DNA of 58,610 nt, taken from the NCBI GenBank assembly GCA_902796265.1, contig CADBOG010000129.1, forward strand, positions 1 through 58,610, read 5' to 3'. Of this stretch, positions 49,543-57,355 are shown in pieces. The notes beneath the pieces were generated by a model that saw nothing but the letters and a program-made list of their open reading frames with translations, was not told where the DNA came from and did no database searches. Within the stretch, counting starts at the first letter, position 1. Each line of letters opens with the position of its first letter. This stretch comes from an uncultured Bacteroidota bacterium (GTDB lineage Bacteria > Bacteroidota > Bacteroidia > Bacteroidales > P3). The translations under genes and the position numbers were made by a program.

Positions 49543-51300
49543 ATGAAAAAAATCATTATTGCAGCTGCGTTGTTCGCATTCTTCAGCTTACAATCTTCAA
49601 TCACGCAGGCTTGCACCAATTTCCTTTTCACCAAAGGCGCCACCAAGGATGGCTCCACGATGATTACCTATGCTGCCGACAGCCATGTGCTGTATGGTGA
49701 ACTCTATTATCGTCGCGCTGCCAGCTATCCTGCTGGCACCATGTTCCAAGTCGTTGACTGGGACAGCGGCAAACCTCTTATCAAGATACCCCAAGTGGCT
49801 CAGACCTATAGCGTTGTGGGTAACATCAACGAGTTCCAGCTCGCTATTGGTGAGACAACCTACGGTGGCCGCGAAGAGTTGGCCAACGAGATTGATGGCG
49901 GCATCGATTATGGTTCGCTCATCTACCTCACCCTCCAGCGTGCCAAGAATGCCCGCGAGGCCATCCAGGTGCTTGCAGGATTCCTCTCGCAGTATCCTTA
50001 CCATAGCGAGGGAGAGAGTTTCAGCATCTGCGACCCCGAAGAGGTTTGGATTTTCGAACTCATCGGCAAACGTCCTGGCCTTGTCAAATCCGACATCGCC
50101 AAGAAACTGAAATACACTTATACTGATGGTGCTGTATGGGTTGCTCGCCGCATTCCCGACGGCTATGTCAGCGGTCATGCCAACCAGGCACGCATCACCC
50201 AGTTCCCCCAGGAGGGCAAGAAGTTCAGCAAAGCTAAAGGCAAAGGTCTCCACACAGCCATCAGCAGCGCCCATATTGACTATGTCTTCGAGCCCGAAGT
50301 GGAATGTGTCTACAGCTCTGATGTCATCACCTTCGCACGCGCTTGCGGCTGGTATAATGGCACCGATGCCGACTTCAGCTTCACCGACACCTACGCTCCT
50401 CTCACTTTCAGCGGCATCCGTGCTTGCGATGCCCGTGTCTACGCTATGTTCCGTCGCGTCAATGCCAGCATGCGCAAATATGAGAAGTATGCTATGGGCG
50501 ACGCTACTGCCGAGCGTATGCCTCTTTGGATTAAGCCCGACCACAAGGTCGATGTCCAGGAGGTCATGAACCTTATGCGCGACCACTACGAGGGTACCGC
50601 AATGGATATGACTCAAGATGTTGGAGCCGGTCCTTTCGCCTGCCCCTATCGTTGGCGTCCTATGGGTTGGGAAATCGACGGCAAGAAGTACATCCACGAG
50701 CGTGCTACCTCCACCCAGCAGACAGGCTTCAGCTTTGTTGCCCAGTGCCGCAGCTGGCTGCCTCGCAAGGTTGGTGGCATCATCTGGTTTGGTGTCGACG
50801 ATACCTATAGCACCGTCTACTGCCCCATGTATTGTGGCATCACCGACATTCCTCTCTGTTTCCGCGAGGGCAATGGCGATATGGTCACCTATAGCCCTAC
50901 TGCAGCTTTCTGGCTGTTCAACCGCGTCACCAACTTCGCCTACAGCCGCTACAAAGACATGATTGTCGATGTGCAGAAAGTTCAGACACAGCTTGAGGAA
51001 GGCTTCATCACCGATGTCGAGAAATTCGACGCCCGTGCCAAGAATGCTACCGAAAGCGAGCTTACCACCCTTCTCAACGACTTCAGCGGCCGCCAAGCCA
51101 AGAAGATGATGGACGAGTGGACAAAACTCGACCAATATCTCCTTGTCAAGTACATGGATGGCAACATCAAGAAAGAGGAGAACGGCAAGTTCAAGAAAAC
51201 AGAGTTCGGTGGCTCAGCAATGCCCAATATGCCTGAGTATCCGCAGTGGTTCTATCGTCAGATTGTCCGTGACCACGGCAGCGTCATCGAAGAAAAATAA
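49543..51300 (+). CDS. C69 family dipeptidase (first of a tandem pair)
   Basis: 585 residues. The signal peptide ends TQA|C, exposing Cys24 as the N-terminal nucleophile of an Ntn hydrolase (CTNFLFTKGATKDGSTMITY). This is not a lipobox. Other conserved blocks are YSVVGNINEFQLAIGETTYGG, GESFSICDPEEVWIFELIG, GHANQARIT and FGVDDTYSTVYCPMYCG. The family cleaves dipeptides in the periplasm or at the surface and suits amino-acid fermentation. The second copy follows after a terminator. The gene lies 25 bp after tdh, so threonine from peptides may be degraded by a co-expressed enzyme. Confidence 0.92.
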   Translation: MKKIIIAAALFAFFSLQSSITQACTNFLFTKGATKDGSTMITYAADSHVLYGELYYRRAASYPAGTMFQVVDWDSGKPLIKIPQVAQTYSVVGNINEFQLAIGETTYGGREELANEIDGGIDYGSLIYLTLQRAKNAREAIQVLAGFLSQYPYHSEGESFSICDPEEVWIFELIGKRPGLVKSDIAKKLKYTYTDGAVWVARRIPDGYVSGHANQARITQFPQEGKKFSKAKGKGLHTAISSAHIDYVFEPEVECVYSSDVITFARACGWYNGTDADFSFTDTYAPLTFSGIRACDARVYAMFRRVNASMRKYEKYAMGDATAERMPLWIKPDHKVDVQEVMNLMRDHYEGTAMDMTQDVGAGPFACPYRWRPMGWEIDGKKYIHERATSTQQTGFSFVAQCRSWLPRKVGGIIWFGVDDTYSTVYCPMYCGITDIPLCFREGNGDMVTYSPTAAFWLFNRVTNFAYSRYKDMIVDVQKVQTQLEEGFITDVEKFDARAKNATESELTTLLNDFSGRQAKKMMDEWTKLDQYLLVKYMDGNIKKEENGKFKKTEFGGSAMPNMPEYPQWFYRQIVRDHGSVIEEK

Positions 51301-51310
51301 CAAAGAGATA

Positions 51311-51341
51311 GGGGAGTGAGAGTGAAATCACTCCCCTTTTT
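51311..51341 (+). terminator. Terminator between the two dipeptidase genes
   Basis: GGGGAGTGA / TCACTCCCC stem followed by five T, 11 bp after the first stop. Confidence 0.85.
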
Positions 51342-51366
51342 AATTCATCAAAAACTAATCAACTCC

Positions 51367-53058
51367 ATGAGAAAAATCTTTCTTGTAGCCGCTATATTTT
51401 CAATTATGAATTTTCAATTCTCAATTTCAGAGGCATGCACCAATTTCATTTGTAGTCGTGGTGCGAGTGCTGATGGAAGCACGATGATCACTTATGCTGC
51501 CGACAGTCACACACGTTACGGCCAGCTCCGCTACCATAAGGGTGGTGACCATCAGCCGGGCGAGATGGTAAAACTCTACAACTACGGCAGCCTTAAGTTC
51601 CAGATAGAGATACCGCAGGTGCCACACACTTATAGCGTTGTGGGTTTCATCAACGAGCATCAGCTGGCTATAGGAGAGACAACATGGGGAGGCATCGAAC
51701 CACTCTCCAAAGGTAACGATATGGGCATCGACTACGGCAACCTCATCTACCTTGCCCTCCAGCGTGCCAAGACTTGTCGTGAGGCTATCGTGGTGATGGC
51801 AAATCTTGTCAACACCTACGGTTATGCCGACGGTGGTGAGAGTTTTTCGCTTTGTGACCCCAACGAGACATGGATTTTTGAGATTACCAGCAAAGGCAGC
51901 GAGAAGGGAGCCGTTTGGGTGGCACGCCGTGTGCCGGAAGGCTATGTATGTGGTCATGCCAATCAGGCACGCATCACCACTTTCCCCAAGATGCATCGTG
52001 GAGCTCCGCAGGTGAGCCTAAGTTTCAGCAACATCTCCGATATCTACAATAACCGCATAGAATGTGTCTATGCCAACGATGTGGTCTCATTTGCACGCAA
52101 GCACGACCTATTCCATGGGTCGGATGCCGATTTCAGTTTTGCTGATGTCTACAATCCCCTCACCTTTAGTGGTCTTCGTGCATGCGAAGCTCGTGTCTAT
52201 GCCATGTTCAACCGCATTAATGGCGACATGAAGCGTTACGAGAAGTTCGCAATGGGCGACCCCAAGGCCGAGCGTCTGCCCCTTTGGATTAAACCCGACC
52301 ATAAGCTTACGGTGCATGATGTCATGGAGCTGATGCGCGACCATTATGAGGGCACACCTATGGATATGAATGGCGATGTGGGAGCAGGTCCTTTCCATTG
52401 CCCCTACCGTTGGCGTCCAATGGATTTCGAGGTCGATGGCCAGAAGTATGTCCACGAGCGTGCCATATCTACCCAGCAGACGGGTTTCTCCTTTGTGGCA
52501 CAATGCCGCAGCTGGTTGCCCGACAAACTCGGTGGCATCATTTGGTTTGGTGTCGACGATACCTATTCTACCGTCTATTGTCCCATGTTTTGCGGCATCA
52601 GTCAAGTGCCTGTATGTTTCGAAGAGGGCAACGGCTCGATGTCGGAGTATTCCGAAACGGCTGCTTTTTGGCTTTTCAATCGTGTCAGCAACTTCTGCTA
52701 TCTGCGTTACGATAGCATGATTGTCGATGTGCGGCGTGTTCAGGGCGAGCTTGAGAGCGACTTCATCAAGATTGTCGATGGAGTGAGCAAGCAGTACGAG
52801 AACTATGACGACACACGTCTTGTGGCTGCTCTCAACCGCACGAGCAACCAGTGTGCCGACCAAATGATGCGCCGATGGACACAGCTCGACCGCCTGCTTC
52901 TTATGAAGTATGTCGATGGCAATATCAAGACCGTCGAGAACGGACACATCAAGACCACCCCCACTGGCGTCGTTACAGGCATCAAGCAGCCGCCTTATCC
53001 CGAATGGTTCTATCGCCAGATAGTCAACGATCATGGCGATATTCTCAAGGAACAATAA
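51367..53058 (+). CDS. C69 family dipeptidase (second of a tandem pair)
   Basis: 563 residues from ATG 51367; the in-frame extension to 51316 crosses the terminator and was rejected. The signal peptide MRKIFLVAAIFSIMNFQFSI leads to SEA|C with nucleophile Cys24, aligned with the first copy. The bodies are closely similar (GHANQARITTFP, WRPMDFEVDGQKYVHERA, FGVDDTYSTVYCPMFCG). Oddity: the hydrophobic core of the signal peptide (FSIMNFQFSIS) is encoded by a CAATTATGAATTTTCAATTC microrepeat common in the non-coding DNA here. The pair arose by duplication and may differ in dipeptide preference. Confidence 0.92.
   Translation: MRKIFLVAAIFSIMNFQFSISEACTNFICSRGASADGSTMITYAADSHTRYGQLRYHKGGDHQPGEMVKLYNYGSLKFQIEIPQVPHTYSVVGFINEHQLAIGETTWGGIEPLSKGNDMGIDYGNLIYLALQRAKTCREAIVVMANLVNTYGYADGGESFSLCDPNETWIFEITSKGSEKGAVWVARRVPEGYVCGHANQARITTFPKMHRGAPQVSLSFSNISDIYNNRIECVYANDVVSFARKHDLFHGSDADFSFADVYNPLTFSGLRACEARVYAMFNRINGDMKRYEKFAMGDPKAERLPLWIKPDHKLTVHDVMELMRDHYEGTPMDMNGDVGAGPFHCPYRWRPMDFEVDGQKYVHERAISTQQTGFSFVAQCRSWLPDKLGGIIWFGVDDTYSTVYCPMFCGISQVPVCFEEGNGSMSEYSETAAFWLFNRVSNFCYLRYDSMIVDVRRVQGELESDFIKIVDGVSKQYENYDDTRLVAALNRTSNQCADQMMRRWTQLDRLLLMKYVDGNIKTVENGHIKTTPTGVVTGIKQPPYPEWFYRQIVNDHGDILKEQ
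51396..51430. repeat. CAATTATGAATT / CAATTCTCAATT microrepeat inside a signal peptide
   Basis: It matches the AT-rich microrepeat family at 46386-46427, 47396-47420 and 48437-48450. It forms the h-region of the second C69 dipeptidase signal peptide. Confidence 0.65.
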
Positions 53059-53701: not shown

Positions 53702-53746
53702 TGGCTATTCGCTGTCGTGGGTTTATTTGTGGCTATTCGCTGTCGT
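53701..53746. repeat. 18-bp direct repeat spanning the DUF6266-like stop
   Basis: GTGGCTATTCGCTGTCGT occurs at 53701-53718 and 53729-53746. On the minus strand the coding copy encodes the C-terminal D-S-E and stop codon; the other copy lies in the 3' untranslated region. Confidence 0.85.
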
Positions 53747-54650
53747 TGCCGTCGCCATCGCCGCCTCCGTCGTTGCCGCCGGTGTTGCCACCCGTCGAGC
53801 CGCTGCCGCCTGTTCCGCCTGTTCCGCCCGTTCCGGTGTTGCCACCCGTGGTGCCGCCCGGGTTGGTGCCGGTGCCGTCGGTGATGGTGCCGTCGGTGCC
53901 GCCGCCAGCAGTTGTGCCTTGGCCACCGGTGGTGCTTCCGTTGGCGCTCACGGTGAGAGCTGCGCTTACGGTTGGCGAGAATGCAAAGCCGGTGGTGGTT
54001 ACGCGGCTCAGATCGAGGACGAAGCCCTGCTGATTGGCAGCCGTCTGGCCGAGAACGCCCCATGCGTCTTGAGTCTTGGGCTCGAGGACGATGCCGTAGG
54101 CAAATACCTCGAGTGCGTCGCCGCTTTCGTTGGCGGATTTGCCGATGCTGATGGCTGTGCGGGTGTCGAGAGCTGCGGTGTGGCGCCAAAGGCCGGTGGT
54201 GAGGTCGTGGACGAGGATGCACTTGGCGATAGCCTCGCCTGCGGCAGCTCCGCTGAAGGTAGCCTTGAAAGCGTCCTCCTCGCTGGTGATCAGCATCGAG
54301 ATAGCCTCAGCGTAGGAGGGGTTGTCGACGAGGTGCAGGTCATACTTGAGGGATGCTTGGTTGCCGCTGGCGTTGACCACGACGCTCTCGAGCAAGCGTT
54401 TGATAAGTATTCCTCGGTCGGTCTTGCGATGGCCATTGGCGATGAGGGAGGTGCGACCCACTTCACCGAGCATGCCTGCCACTTGAGCTGCCAGCTTCAT
54501 TTTGGCACGGTTGCGCATCTGTGCATCTGTGCGAGGGTTAGAGATTGAGGCGGCCTTCTGTTTGAGGATGATTCCGCCCTTGCGGGACTTCTGTCCCACG
54601 GTGTTGCCGGCCTTGCCGACAAATTGGATGATAGAAACAATTTTTGCCAT
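53733..54650 (-). CDS. DUF6266-like protein with Gly/Thr-rich tail
   Basis: 305 residues, ATG at 54650. The N-terminus (VGKAGNTVGQKSRKGGIILK and ISNPRTDAQMRNRAKMKLAAQ) follows the G-K-x-G-N-x-V-G...N-P-R-T-x2-Q-x3-R pattern of Bacteroidota DUF6266 proteins, whose function is unknown. Residues ~85-250 look beta-rich and soluble. The last ~50 residues are low-complexity GGT/TGG ending GGDGDGNDSE. There is no signal peptide. A basic, helical N-terminus would suit nucleic-acid or partner binding, but that is a guess. The gene is surrounded by four different short tandem repeats and shares its locus with a short membrane ORF and an 11-bp array. Confidence 0.75.
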   Translation of the reverse strand: MAKIVSIIQFVGKAGNTVGQKSRKGGIILKQKAASISNPRTDAQMRNRAKMKLAAQVAGMLGEVGRTSLIANGHRKTDRGILIKRLLESVVVNASGNQASLKYDLHLVDNPSYAEAISMLITSEEDAFKATFSGAAAGEAIAKCILVHDLTTGLWRHTAALDTRTAISIGKSANESGDALEVFAYGIVLEPKTQDAWGVLGQTAANQQGFVLDLSRVTTTGFAFSPTVSAALTVSANGSTTGGQGTTAGGGTDGTITDGTGTNPGGTTGGNTGTGGTGGTGGSGSTGGNTGGNDGGGDGDGNDSE

Positions 54651-55856: not shown

Positions 55857-56168
55857 TTATAACCCTTTTAGGATATTCCATACCCAATTTAGAAGAGTTA
55901 ATAAAGAGGAAACAACAATAACCCATATTGGTAATTGACGATGCATCAGTTTATAAACATAAAAATCACGCAATTTTATATCACCTTTATATTTAATGAC
56001 ATCTACAATAGTTATAACAATAGCAGCTCCAATACCAATCACTAATAGAAAAACGATGGGATTATACCATAAAGCCTGCTTTATGTTTCCATAAAACAGA
56101 CTTTTTAATGCTCGAGTACATCCGCAGCCAGGGCACGGACAACCCGTCAATTCTTTGAAGAAGCACAT
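55857..56168 (-). CDS. DUF2752 membrane protein
   Basis: 103 residues from ATG 56168 (MCFFKELTGCPCPGCGCTRA), which starts 1 bp after the TM2 gene; a TTG at 56189 would overlap it by 20 bp. The C-P-G-C-G-x-T-R-A motif defines DUF2752. Two to three hydrophobic segments follow. The function is unknown; the family usually travels with TM2-domain genes in this phylum. It is the third gene of a probable operon with the TM2 and zinc-ribbon genes. Confidence 0.85.
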   Translation of the reverse strand: MCFFKELTGCPCPGCGCTRALKSLFYGNIKQALWYNPIVFLLVIGIGAAIVITIVDVIKYKGDIKLRDFYVYKLMHRQLPIWVIVVSSLLTLLNWVWNILKGL

Positions 56169-56169
56169 T

Positions 56170-56514
56170 CTATTTGCCTGCGAGACCAATAAACTTCTGA
56201 TAGTTGGCCTCTCTAGTCAATTTAGAAATCAAAAATAAATCAATTAACCACCAGATACCACAGCCACCGCCTGTAAGTAGTTTGATTACACCGTACATCG
56301 TATGACCCAGCATAAAACGGTCAACACCTAATGCACCAAGAAAAATAGAAATAAGCAACATAATCATAGGCTGTTTGTAGTCTATAGCCGTTACCATTGT
56401 CAGCCTCTCGTTGTCCATTGCGGCTAACTTACTTTTGATTTCGTTCATACTCTCTGCCGGAAAATAATCCGTTTTTTGAGCGACGAACATGTCGATTGTG
56501 TTTTGATTGTTCAT
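56170..56514 (-). CDS. TM2 domain protein
   Basis: 114 residues. A soluble N-terminal ~45 residues ([20 protein letters not shown]) is followed by two membrane helices with the TM2 signature [20 protein letters not shown] and [17 protein letters not shown]2 proteins are small inner-membrane proteins of unclear function. It is followed directly by DUF2752 and preceded 12 bp upstream by a zinc-ribbon protein. Confidence 0.9.
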
Positions 56515-56526
56515 TTTCTTAAAATT

Positions 56527-56733
56527 TTAATAGTATATTGTAAGTTTAATCATCATCACCAATACATAAACCATATATAAAATTGCTAGAATACATAATA
56601 TAGCTATAAATCCAACAGAGCATGCAATTAAAAGTTTAAAAAGCAATCTGTCTTCATTTGATGTGGGTCTTCCGCAATATGGACAACCCTTAGCTCCATC
56701 TCTTATTTCTTTACCACAAGTCTTACAAATCAT
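56527..56733 (-). CDS. Zinc-ribbon membrane protein
   Basis: 68 residues. The N-terminal zinc ribbon CKTCGKEIRDGAKGCPYCGR (Cys3, 6, 17, 20) is followed by a charged linker and one long hydrophobic segment (~32-65). It is typical of small Bacteroidota zinc_ribbon-TM proteins. First gene of the zinc-ribbon/TM2/DUF2752 operon; a -7 box lies 29 nt upstream of its ATG. Confidence 0.85.
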   Translation of the reverse strand: MICKTCGKEIRDGAKGCPYCGRPTSNEDRLLFKLLIACSVGFIAILCILAILYMVYVLVMMIKLTIYY

Positions 56734-56828: not shown

Positions 56829-57032
56829 CTACAATAAATCGGAGTAGTGTCTAAACAAGTTATTACCAAGGATTTTACTGATGCGTAGCAACTGTTGCGT
56901 GTCGATGGATGGCTTTGTGTAAAGCCTTTGCAAAGTGCGTCGATCTATATCAAGTTGTTCGGCAAGCCATCGGTTGGTGTGCCCTTGCCGCCGCAATTCG
57001 TCGCGGATAATGTTCCCAATGTGTATTTGCAT
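56829..57032 (-). CDS. Mini XRE-type helix-turn-helix protein
   Basis: 67 residues, almost wholly one HTH domain (IGNIIRDELRRQGHTNRWLA, then EQLDIDRRTLQRLYTKPSID). The LAEQLDIDRRTLQRLY segment is a clear HTH. No other domain is present. Tiny XRE proteins of this kind act as repressors or as antitoxin-like regulators, but no toxin gene is adjacent. It is preceded by a ~285-nt leader with strong secondary structure and followed at once by a 40-bp palindrome, a plausible binding site. The ATG at 57032 lies 4 nt after the leader's closing stem. Confidence 0.85.
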   Translation of the reverse strand: MQIHIGNIIRDELRRQGHTNRWLAEQLDIDRRTLQRLYTKPSIDTQQLLRISKILGNNLFRHYSDLL

Positions 57033-57036
57033 ATCA

Positions 57037-57249
57037 GTTTGCTATTGTACGCTTTGCTACCGATTCCTTATTAAATGCAACGACCACAGACAAAAAGAAG
57101 GCGAGCAATCTCGTCTCCAGTCTGCGGTCGTCGAAAAAACCTCCAAGGATAGACAAAAATGCTCGCTTAACAACGAGCATCTGCTTATGTCTTCCTTGGT
57201 ACCGTATTGAAATTTTCGACGTTTCAGACTGGTCGGAACAATAGCAAAC
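57037..57249 (-). ncRNA. Structured leader RNA upstream of the mini-HTH gene
   Basis: Reading the minus strand, closing arms GTTTGCTATTGT (57249-57238) and ACAATAGCAAAC (57048-57037) are perfectly complementary. Inside lie two modules of the same design. Module 1: CCAAGGAAGACA / TGTCTATCCTTGG (57199-57188 / 57155-57143, one bulge) encloses hairpin ATGCTCG/CGAGCAT, then TTTTTGTCT. Module 2: ACGACCGCAGAC / GTCTGTGGTCGT (57131-57120 / 57091-57080, one mismatch) encloses hairpin GACGAG/CTCGCC-like, then TTCTTTTTGTCT. CGAAAA / TTTTCG joins module 1 coaxially to module 2. A consensus promoter lies upstream. Confidence 0.6.
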
Positions 57250-57323
57250 GCTTTGGTTTTTAATATGTATCTATTACTTTGTTTTTGTTTCTATATCATT
57301 TCATCAGGTGTTAAAAATCGATG

Positions 57324-57355
57324 CAAAAATACAAAAATTATTTAAATTGGCAAAA
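57324..57355 (-). promoter_or_regulatory. Consensus promoter of the structured leader and HTH gene
   Basis: Minus-strand TTTTG (57351-57355), a 19-nt spacer, then TATTTTTG (57324-57331). The predicted start near 57317 places the whole structured region in the 5' leader of the HTH gene. Confidence 0.7.

Follow-up and report, generated by a model that had tools for sequence, protein, structure and literature searches.

Predicted pseudoknotted 5′ leader RNAs, present in many copies per genome, ahead of diverse genes in Bacteroidia

The SAM-II/SAM-V, preQ1 and fluoride riboswitches are built on H-type pseudoknot aptamers and function in transcription attenuation; a second kind of leader, the ops/JUMPstart elements (RfaH) and the leaders of UpxY-controlled capsule operons, heads surface-polysaccharide and other acquired operons. 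The SAM-V pseudoknot is documented in PMC6061858. From Bacteroides, the GibS and FopS sRNAs are described in PMC11697453 and PMC7366714 as multicopy RNAs with TAnnTTTG-type promoters and terminator-like ends, FopS being approximately 65–70 nt long, characterised by the R1 seed and mostly intergenic or antisense. Comparative genomics has further yielded candidate RNAs from the same phylum, among them the Bacteroidales-1, Bacteroides-1, Bacteroid-trp and Flavo-1 motifs (PMC2864571).

The RNA described here is encoded in the window, that is, the whole stretch of DNA analysed (58,610 nt). It shares with the pseudoknot riboswitches the position in a 5′ leader, a pseudoknot interlocked with a putative switch at a terminator or start codon, and variable helices joined by conserved junctions; unlike them it serves diverse targets without a shared metabolic theme, has unusually many copies per genome, carries a large hairpin domain (P4) in its loop and has no Rfam match. 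Like the ops/JUMPstart and UpxY leaders it heads surface-polysaccharide and other acquired operons, but its gene runs are mostly short and its conserved pseudoknot is large. With GibS and FopS it has in common the phylum, the multiplicity, the promoter type and the terminator-like end; it nevertheless differs from FopS as described (PMC11697453, PMC7366714) in its length, for which the median estimate is about 290 nt, and in being a leader tied to the next gene. Those of the Bacteroidota motifs that have an Rfam accession did not match; Bacteroides-2 is listed without one in the table of PMC2864571, and the comparison covers the motifs with an accession. Against Rfam 15 the whole window gave no match, nor did 14 homologous loci, and in 17 further loci, with E-values up to 0.1 allowed, only a tRNA in the flank was found; the best sub-threshold match in a piece of the window, RF02864, scored 22.6 bits against a gathering threshold of 123. 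No description was found in the literature searched, mostly the main texts of openly accessible journal articles; the supplement of PMC8040213 lists candidates, some of which could match. The family is apparently undescribed, and no Rfam 15 family covers it.

In the window the predicted leader occupies 57317–57033 of the minus strand, on which all its features lie. A structured leader had been placed there in the preliminary description, and both the position check and shuffle-tested folding confirm it: none of 200 shuffled sequences folds as well as the native one (−84.2 kcal/mol, z −5.08), and for the inner 223 nt (57030–57252) the z-score is −6.54. The 12-bp end stem, called P1 below, is perfect as claimed (57238–57249 with 57037–57048), and the ATG of the HTH gene indeed follows 4 nt beyond it, at 57032. 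The proposed promoter is represented by a TAnnTTTG (−7) box at 57324–57331, from which transcription would be expected to start a few bases downstream, near 57317; of 201 homologous RNAs, 135 are preceded by such a box, against 19.3 expected. Further 5′ features are an ACATATT motif (57262–57268), ahead of the structured part, and an element conserved in the homologue alignment, which resembles WAGCGTTTGCTATTTRTTC (57236–57253) and contains the 5′ strand of P1. The overall layout is promoter, a core of P2, P3, P5 and P4, a terminator-like hairpin with U-run, a post-terminator complement, and the 3′ strand of P1 (57037–57048) directly 5′ of the start codon. Of the earlier interpretation, the new cis-regulatory RNA is supported by homologues with compensatory changes, both inner hairpins with their T-rich stretches are present and are attenuator-like, and the linkage to small HTH genes holds as well (see below); the two-module fold and the interpretation as a MITE do not survive. 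Modules “with the same plan” are not the conserved fold of the homologues, and the supposed covariation within one molecule was not borne out: the outer stem of module 2 (57078–57091 with a strand around 57117–57137) competes with several other pairings that exclude one another, the best-supported helices P2, P3 and P5 are absent from the older model, and P2/P3/P5/P4 displaced it as a conserved structure once homologues were aligned. The likeness of the modules does have a real basis: the 5′ arm of the first hairpin recurs in the terminator strand.

As predicted from the alignments, the conserved core is a helix, P2, around an H-type pseudoknot made of P3 and P5, with the hairpin domain P4 in the loop. 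Covariation identifies the strands of P2 (57225–57232 and 57117–57124, the last two bases of the latter doubling as the start of the terminator hairpin), of P3 (57213–57221, the first pseudoknot strand, and 57129–57137) and of P5 (57139–57142, AGGT, of which GGT pairs, and 57125–57128, ACCG, of which ACC pairs, so that 57140–57142 face 57126–57128). Strong covariation is seen for P2 and P3 in alignments of homologues. Of the alignments used, A2 comprises 27 of 30 loci (L022, L023 and L030 were left out), and the 224 rows of A3–A5 became 206 after short or identical ones had been removed. P5, the fourth helix, was recognised from invariant GGn and nCC on either side of the P3 3′ strand; the inner pair of this motif is T-A in 134, C-G in 55, T-G in 3 and something else in 4 of 196 sequences, and in seven of the ten sequences without the motif the helix has been exchanged as a whole, for CACC:GGTG or CAGT:ACTG. 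In P2, P3 and P5 together, 95.5% of cells are paired, with a covariation score of 0.778 versus 0.192 ± 0.009 for shuffled and at most 0.105 for slid alignments; for P5 alone the values are 0.265, 0.144 ± 0.017 and at most 0.109, the alignment having been fitted to P2 and P3 and not to P5, which is not part of the search model either. By eye P5 is present in all 15 printed matches from outside the order. The outermost pair fails in 24 of 99 sequences for P2 and in 28 of 99 for P5, and the sequence of P2 varies from copy to copy. Domain P4 (57143–57199) consists of an outer stem (57193–57199 with 57143–57149), for which own arms pair better than swapped ones (−14.7 versus −6.4 kcal/mol), and an inner hairpin (57174–57180 with 57159–57165) known from homologue comparison. 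As in riboswitches, a conserved structured domain is found in the 5′ leader.

Judged from such alignments and model searches, this is a large family of knotted RNA leaders with many copies per genome in many gut-type bacteria. A DNA search found a second copy with 77% identity in the window's own genome, which is itself one of 22 genomes with matches among the 99 of relatives. A covariance model from 27 sequences (R1) matched, at E 0.01, 72 of 393 genomes of the order, weak partial matches included; in a phylum-wide draw R1 found 4 of 395 genomes. The figures for prevalence in the order are taken instead from a broader model built on 100 sequences (R2), which at E 0.0001 matched 147 of 393 genomes there, representing 88 of 206 genera. 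R2 also matched 71 of 345 genomes of a class-wide draw (62 of them outside the order) and, within the genus, 57 of 59 genomes. The R2 counts stand without an out-of-phylum control, and the Infernal E-values of both models are rough, as they come from a short calibration; in the order and class scans with either model at most 7 or 8 candidates were scored per genome. In four genomes the copy number reaches 23, 21, 20 and 19; the window's own shows 4. A pattern scan of named genomes gave at least 119 stretches; all 119 listed also match the covariance model (three are cut by the stretch end), the 80 with titles are from Bacteroidales or other Bacteroidota as far as names show, and Prevotella denticola, Duncaniella muris (a copy, L198, being in strain DSM 103720) and Heminiphilus faecis are carriers among the titles listed. 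A search of two members against phages and plasmids by blastn had no match. An 18-mer found eight viral contigs, which are treated as chance because the model gave weak matches of 40–45 nt in three and none in five; with no true copy there, and none found by blastn for the two members, an origin from phages, plasmids or viruses was rejected. Many model matches are close to a contig end, a few hundred bases away at most, as though assemblies tended to break at the leaders or near them. At three loci two RNA copies lie close together on one strand (L086, 4079 and 5001; L135, 5432 and 7698; L182, 5105 and 5555), reminiscent of leader-gene-leader-gene arrays.

The family is far wider than the leader of one HTH gene, as the first genes after the RNA fall into 145 clusters. 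For 138 of these (L096, L078, L066, L186, L032, L002 and L144 were left out) Pfam was scanned in two sets of 73 and 65, and among the first 25 families listed for each set are N6_Mtase (12/73), N6_N4_Mtase (7/73 and 2/65), C5 methylase (5/73), Acyl_transf_3 (8/73 and 1/65), MBOAT (2/73), BspA-type repeats (4/73) and fimbrillin-like proteins (2/73); PADLOC likewise reported mainly methyltransferases for the first genes. This sample leans to restriction-modification because the scan pattern picks one 5′-motif subgroup. In two whole regulons (genomes G001 and G012, 40 of 44 matches fetched) secreted proteins and lipoproteins dominate by eye, and acyltransferase, HTH and methyltransferase genes are there too. 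The first gene in the window, an open reading frame for a 67-residue HTH-type protein (56829–57032), has no Pfam match at E 0.001; homologues are found in 24 of 59 congeneric genomes, and at least 18 of the 33 matches have the RNA just upstream by row comparison, in agreement with the linkage proposed earlier. Behind it, open reading frames and Pfam define co-directional genes (55857–56733) for a zinc ribbon (56527–56733), a TM2 (56170–56514) and a DUF2752 protein (55857–56189); zinc-ribbon or TM2 proteins also occur among the first genes of other loci.

Downstream of the core lies a terminator-like hairpin, T (57097–57118 in the window), followed by a U-run (57092–57096). TTTT is found 16–44 nt past P2 (5th–95th percentile) in 178 of 206 homologues; the other 28 have none within the stretch searched, and thinning of those that do left 108 clusters. 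In these the hairpin, which abuts the U-run, has a median of −8.9 kcal/mol and a mean z of −3.0 (25 of the 108 are weak, above −4 kcal/mol), and in 81 of 108 it overlaps the P2 3′ strand by at least two pairs. Its own 3′ strand (57100–57106) is a copy of the 5′ arm of P4. With the 3′ arm of P4 this strand can form contiguous stretches of at least six Watson-Crick pairs in 59 of 108 clusters, versus 2.8 when shuffled and 4 with the P4 5′ arm. An unsupervised column search in A3 picked the right strands but a short helix only, because the T region aligns poorly, and duplex tests were therefore used: with 5% expected, the own pairing beats all 20 swaps in 31% of the 108 clusters for the terminator strand with the P4 3′ arm, in 20% for the terminator strand with P2′ (the local hairpin) and in 17% for the post-terminator strand with P3′–P2′, compared to 3–5% for four negative pairings. 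The post-terminator strand (57078–57091), identical with the outer stem of the former module 2, reaches −11.4 kcal/mol with its own and −8.7 kcal/mol with swapped partners. At the level of sequence, the putative expression platform and the conserved domain are mutually exclusive, as in riboswitches.

We consider it fairly likely that these RNAs constitute a new class of cis-acting 5′ leader, a riboregulatory attenuator with the pseudoknot as antiterminator; the leader probably works as an on/off switch for the adjoining gene. As long as pseudoknot and P2 hold, the terminator strand would have no partner and polymerase would read through; when they are unformed or undone, the strand would find a partner either in the P2′ end, giving the local hairpin, or in the 3′ arm of P4, and polymerase would stop ahead of the gene. 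The balance may be set by a shared effector (a ligand, an RNA-binding protein or an elongation factor) at some 20 genes per genome, and P1 may add a second, translational gate. The direction of the switch could be the reverse of that proposed. In a nested thermodynamic model at the U-run, P2 exceeds a probability of 0.5 in 82 of 108 clusters, compared with 29 for the local hairpin and 3 for the P4-3′ pairing; as the model favours P2, termination would need an effector, kinetics or pseudoknot effects outside the model. The RNA may also be bound by a regulator. A tentative extension, possible but not probable, is that Bacteroidia possess a new, very large riboswitch-like class reading one cellular signal, perhaps a second messenger or one of infection or stress, through the H-type pseudoknot. 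The flexible regulon of about 20 genes per genome would comprise restriction-modification systems, surface modifiers such as acyltransferases, lipoproteins and secreted proteins, and HTH regulators of small size; a gene acquired recently would enter it by recombination downstream of a leader. Were the attenuator a correct description, a large part of Bacteroidia would carry an RNA regulon unseen by Rfam 15, phage defence and surface variation would both be tied to one leader fold, in-vitro transcription and probing would have an object defined by covariation, and it would become testable how gut and rumen bacteria wire acquired genes into their regulation. Even without a switch mechanism, the family accounts for an otherwise unannotated leader ahead of many genes.

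The main rival of the attenuator is a switch of translation only, which fits much of the data and is, in our estimate, rather doubtful. Here, the A-rich region that precedes the start codon would be masked by P1 and the post-terminator pairing and made accessible by the pseudoknot or by a bound factor; the T hairpin would have a structural role only. The complementarity of the two ends beats all 19 shuffles in 86 of 174 homologues where about 5% are expected, and in the window the ATG is a few bases from the 3′ strand of P1; however, P1 is not significant in the other 88, and neither the U-run after the hairpin nor the overlap of the hairpin with P2 would be explained.

An element recruiting a factor for antitermination, comparable to ops/JUMPstart with RfaH or UpxY, or to EAR, put and nut, would serve read-through of acquired operons and is unlikely. 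Defence and surface functions are frequent among the first genes, a set that resembles the targets of RfaH, and linear motifs are conserved upstream: ACATATT lies approximately 15 nt ahead of AGCGTT in 71 of 202 homologues, where shuffles of the same composition give 1.4, and WAGCGTT is a motif of the same kind. The co-directional gene runs, however, are mostly short, one or two genes at 54 and none at 14 of 95 loci, which makes long-operon antitermination less likely, even if 16 of the 95 runs extend to the limit of the 5 kb viewed. Nor was the 5′ element seen in 12 rRNA leaders from three Bacteroidales genomes, which by eye carry a GTTCATTGA-like box at the place of boxA; a boxA/nut element is disfavoured by this lack of likeness, which was judged by eye and not statistically.

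More unlikely still is a family of sRNAs in which the trans-acting product would be the one ending at the U-run, with read-through a side effect. The multiplicity (as many as 23 copies in one genome), the promoter and the terminator-like end would suit it, and multicopy sRNA families exist in Bacteroides according to PMC11697453, yet the FopS sRNAs described there have about 65–70 nt (a comparison by length, not by sequence), the sequence of P2 differs among copies, and the distance to a co-directional start codon is fixed: in 172 of 199 cases an open reading frame in the same direction begins 170–300 nt downstream of the RNA start, compared to 23 of 129 in the mirror control, with a median of 228 nt from RNA start to ORF start. 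That fixed distance, together with the compensatory evolution of the internal helices, is also the reason why a MITE, that is, a mobile inverted-repeat element inserted before genes by chance, was rejected as highly improbable despite the end-to-end inverted repeat formed by P1, the multiple copies and the matches near contig ends.

With regard to the A-rich part of the leader, the window has a two-codon open frame, ATG-ATA-TAG, at 57291–57299, a feature of a subset of homologues only. Frames of the type ATG-NNN-TAA/TAG occur about 34–50 nt before the RNA in 43 of 201 sequences (20.5 ± 3.9 expected), other ATG-to-stop spacings being near expectation or below; these frames might represent minigenes or else a binding motif, and a required leader peptide was rejected, only 43 of 201 sequences having it. 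Elsewhere in the window, two adjacent similar open reading frames of 585 and 580 residues (49543–53058) encode products that look like C69-type dipeptidases, and another (53733–54650) has a glycine-rich tail and a weak match, under the Pfam cut-off, to DUF6266.
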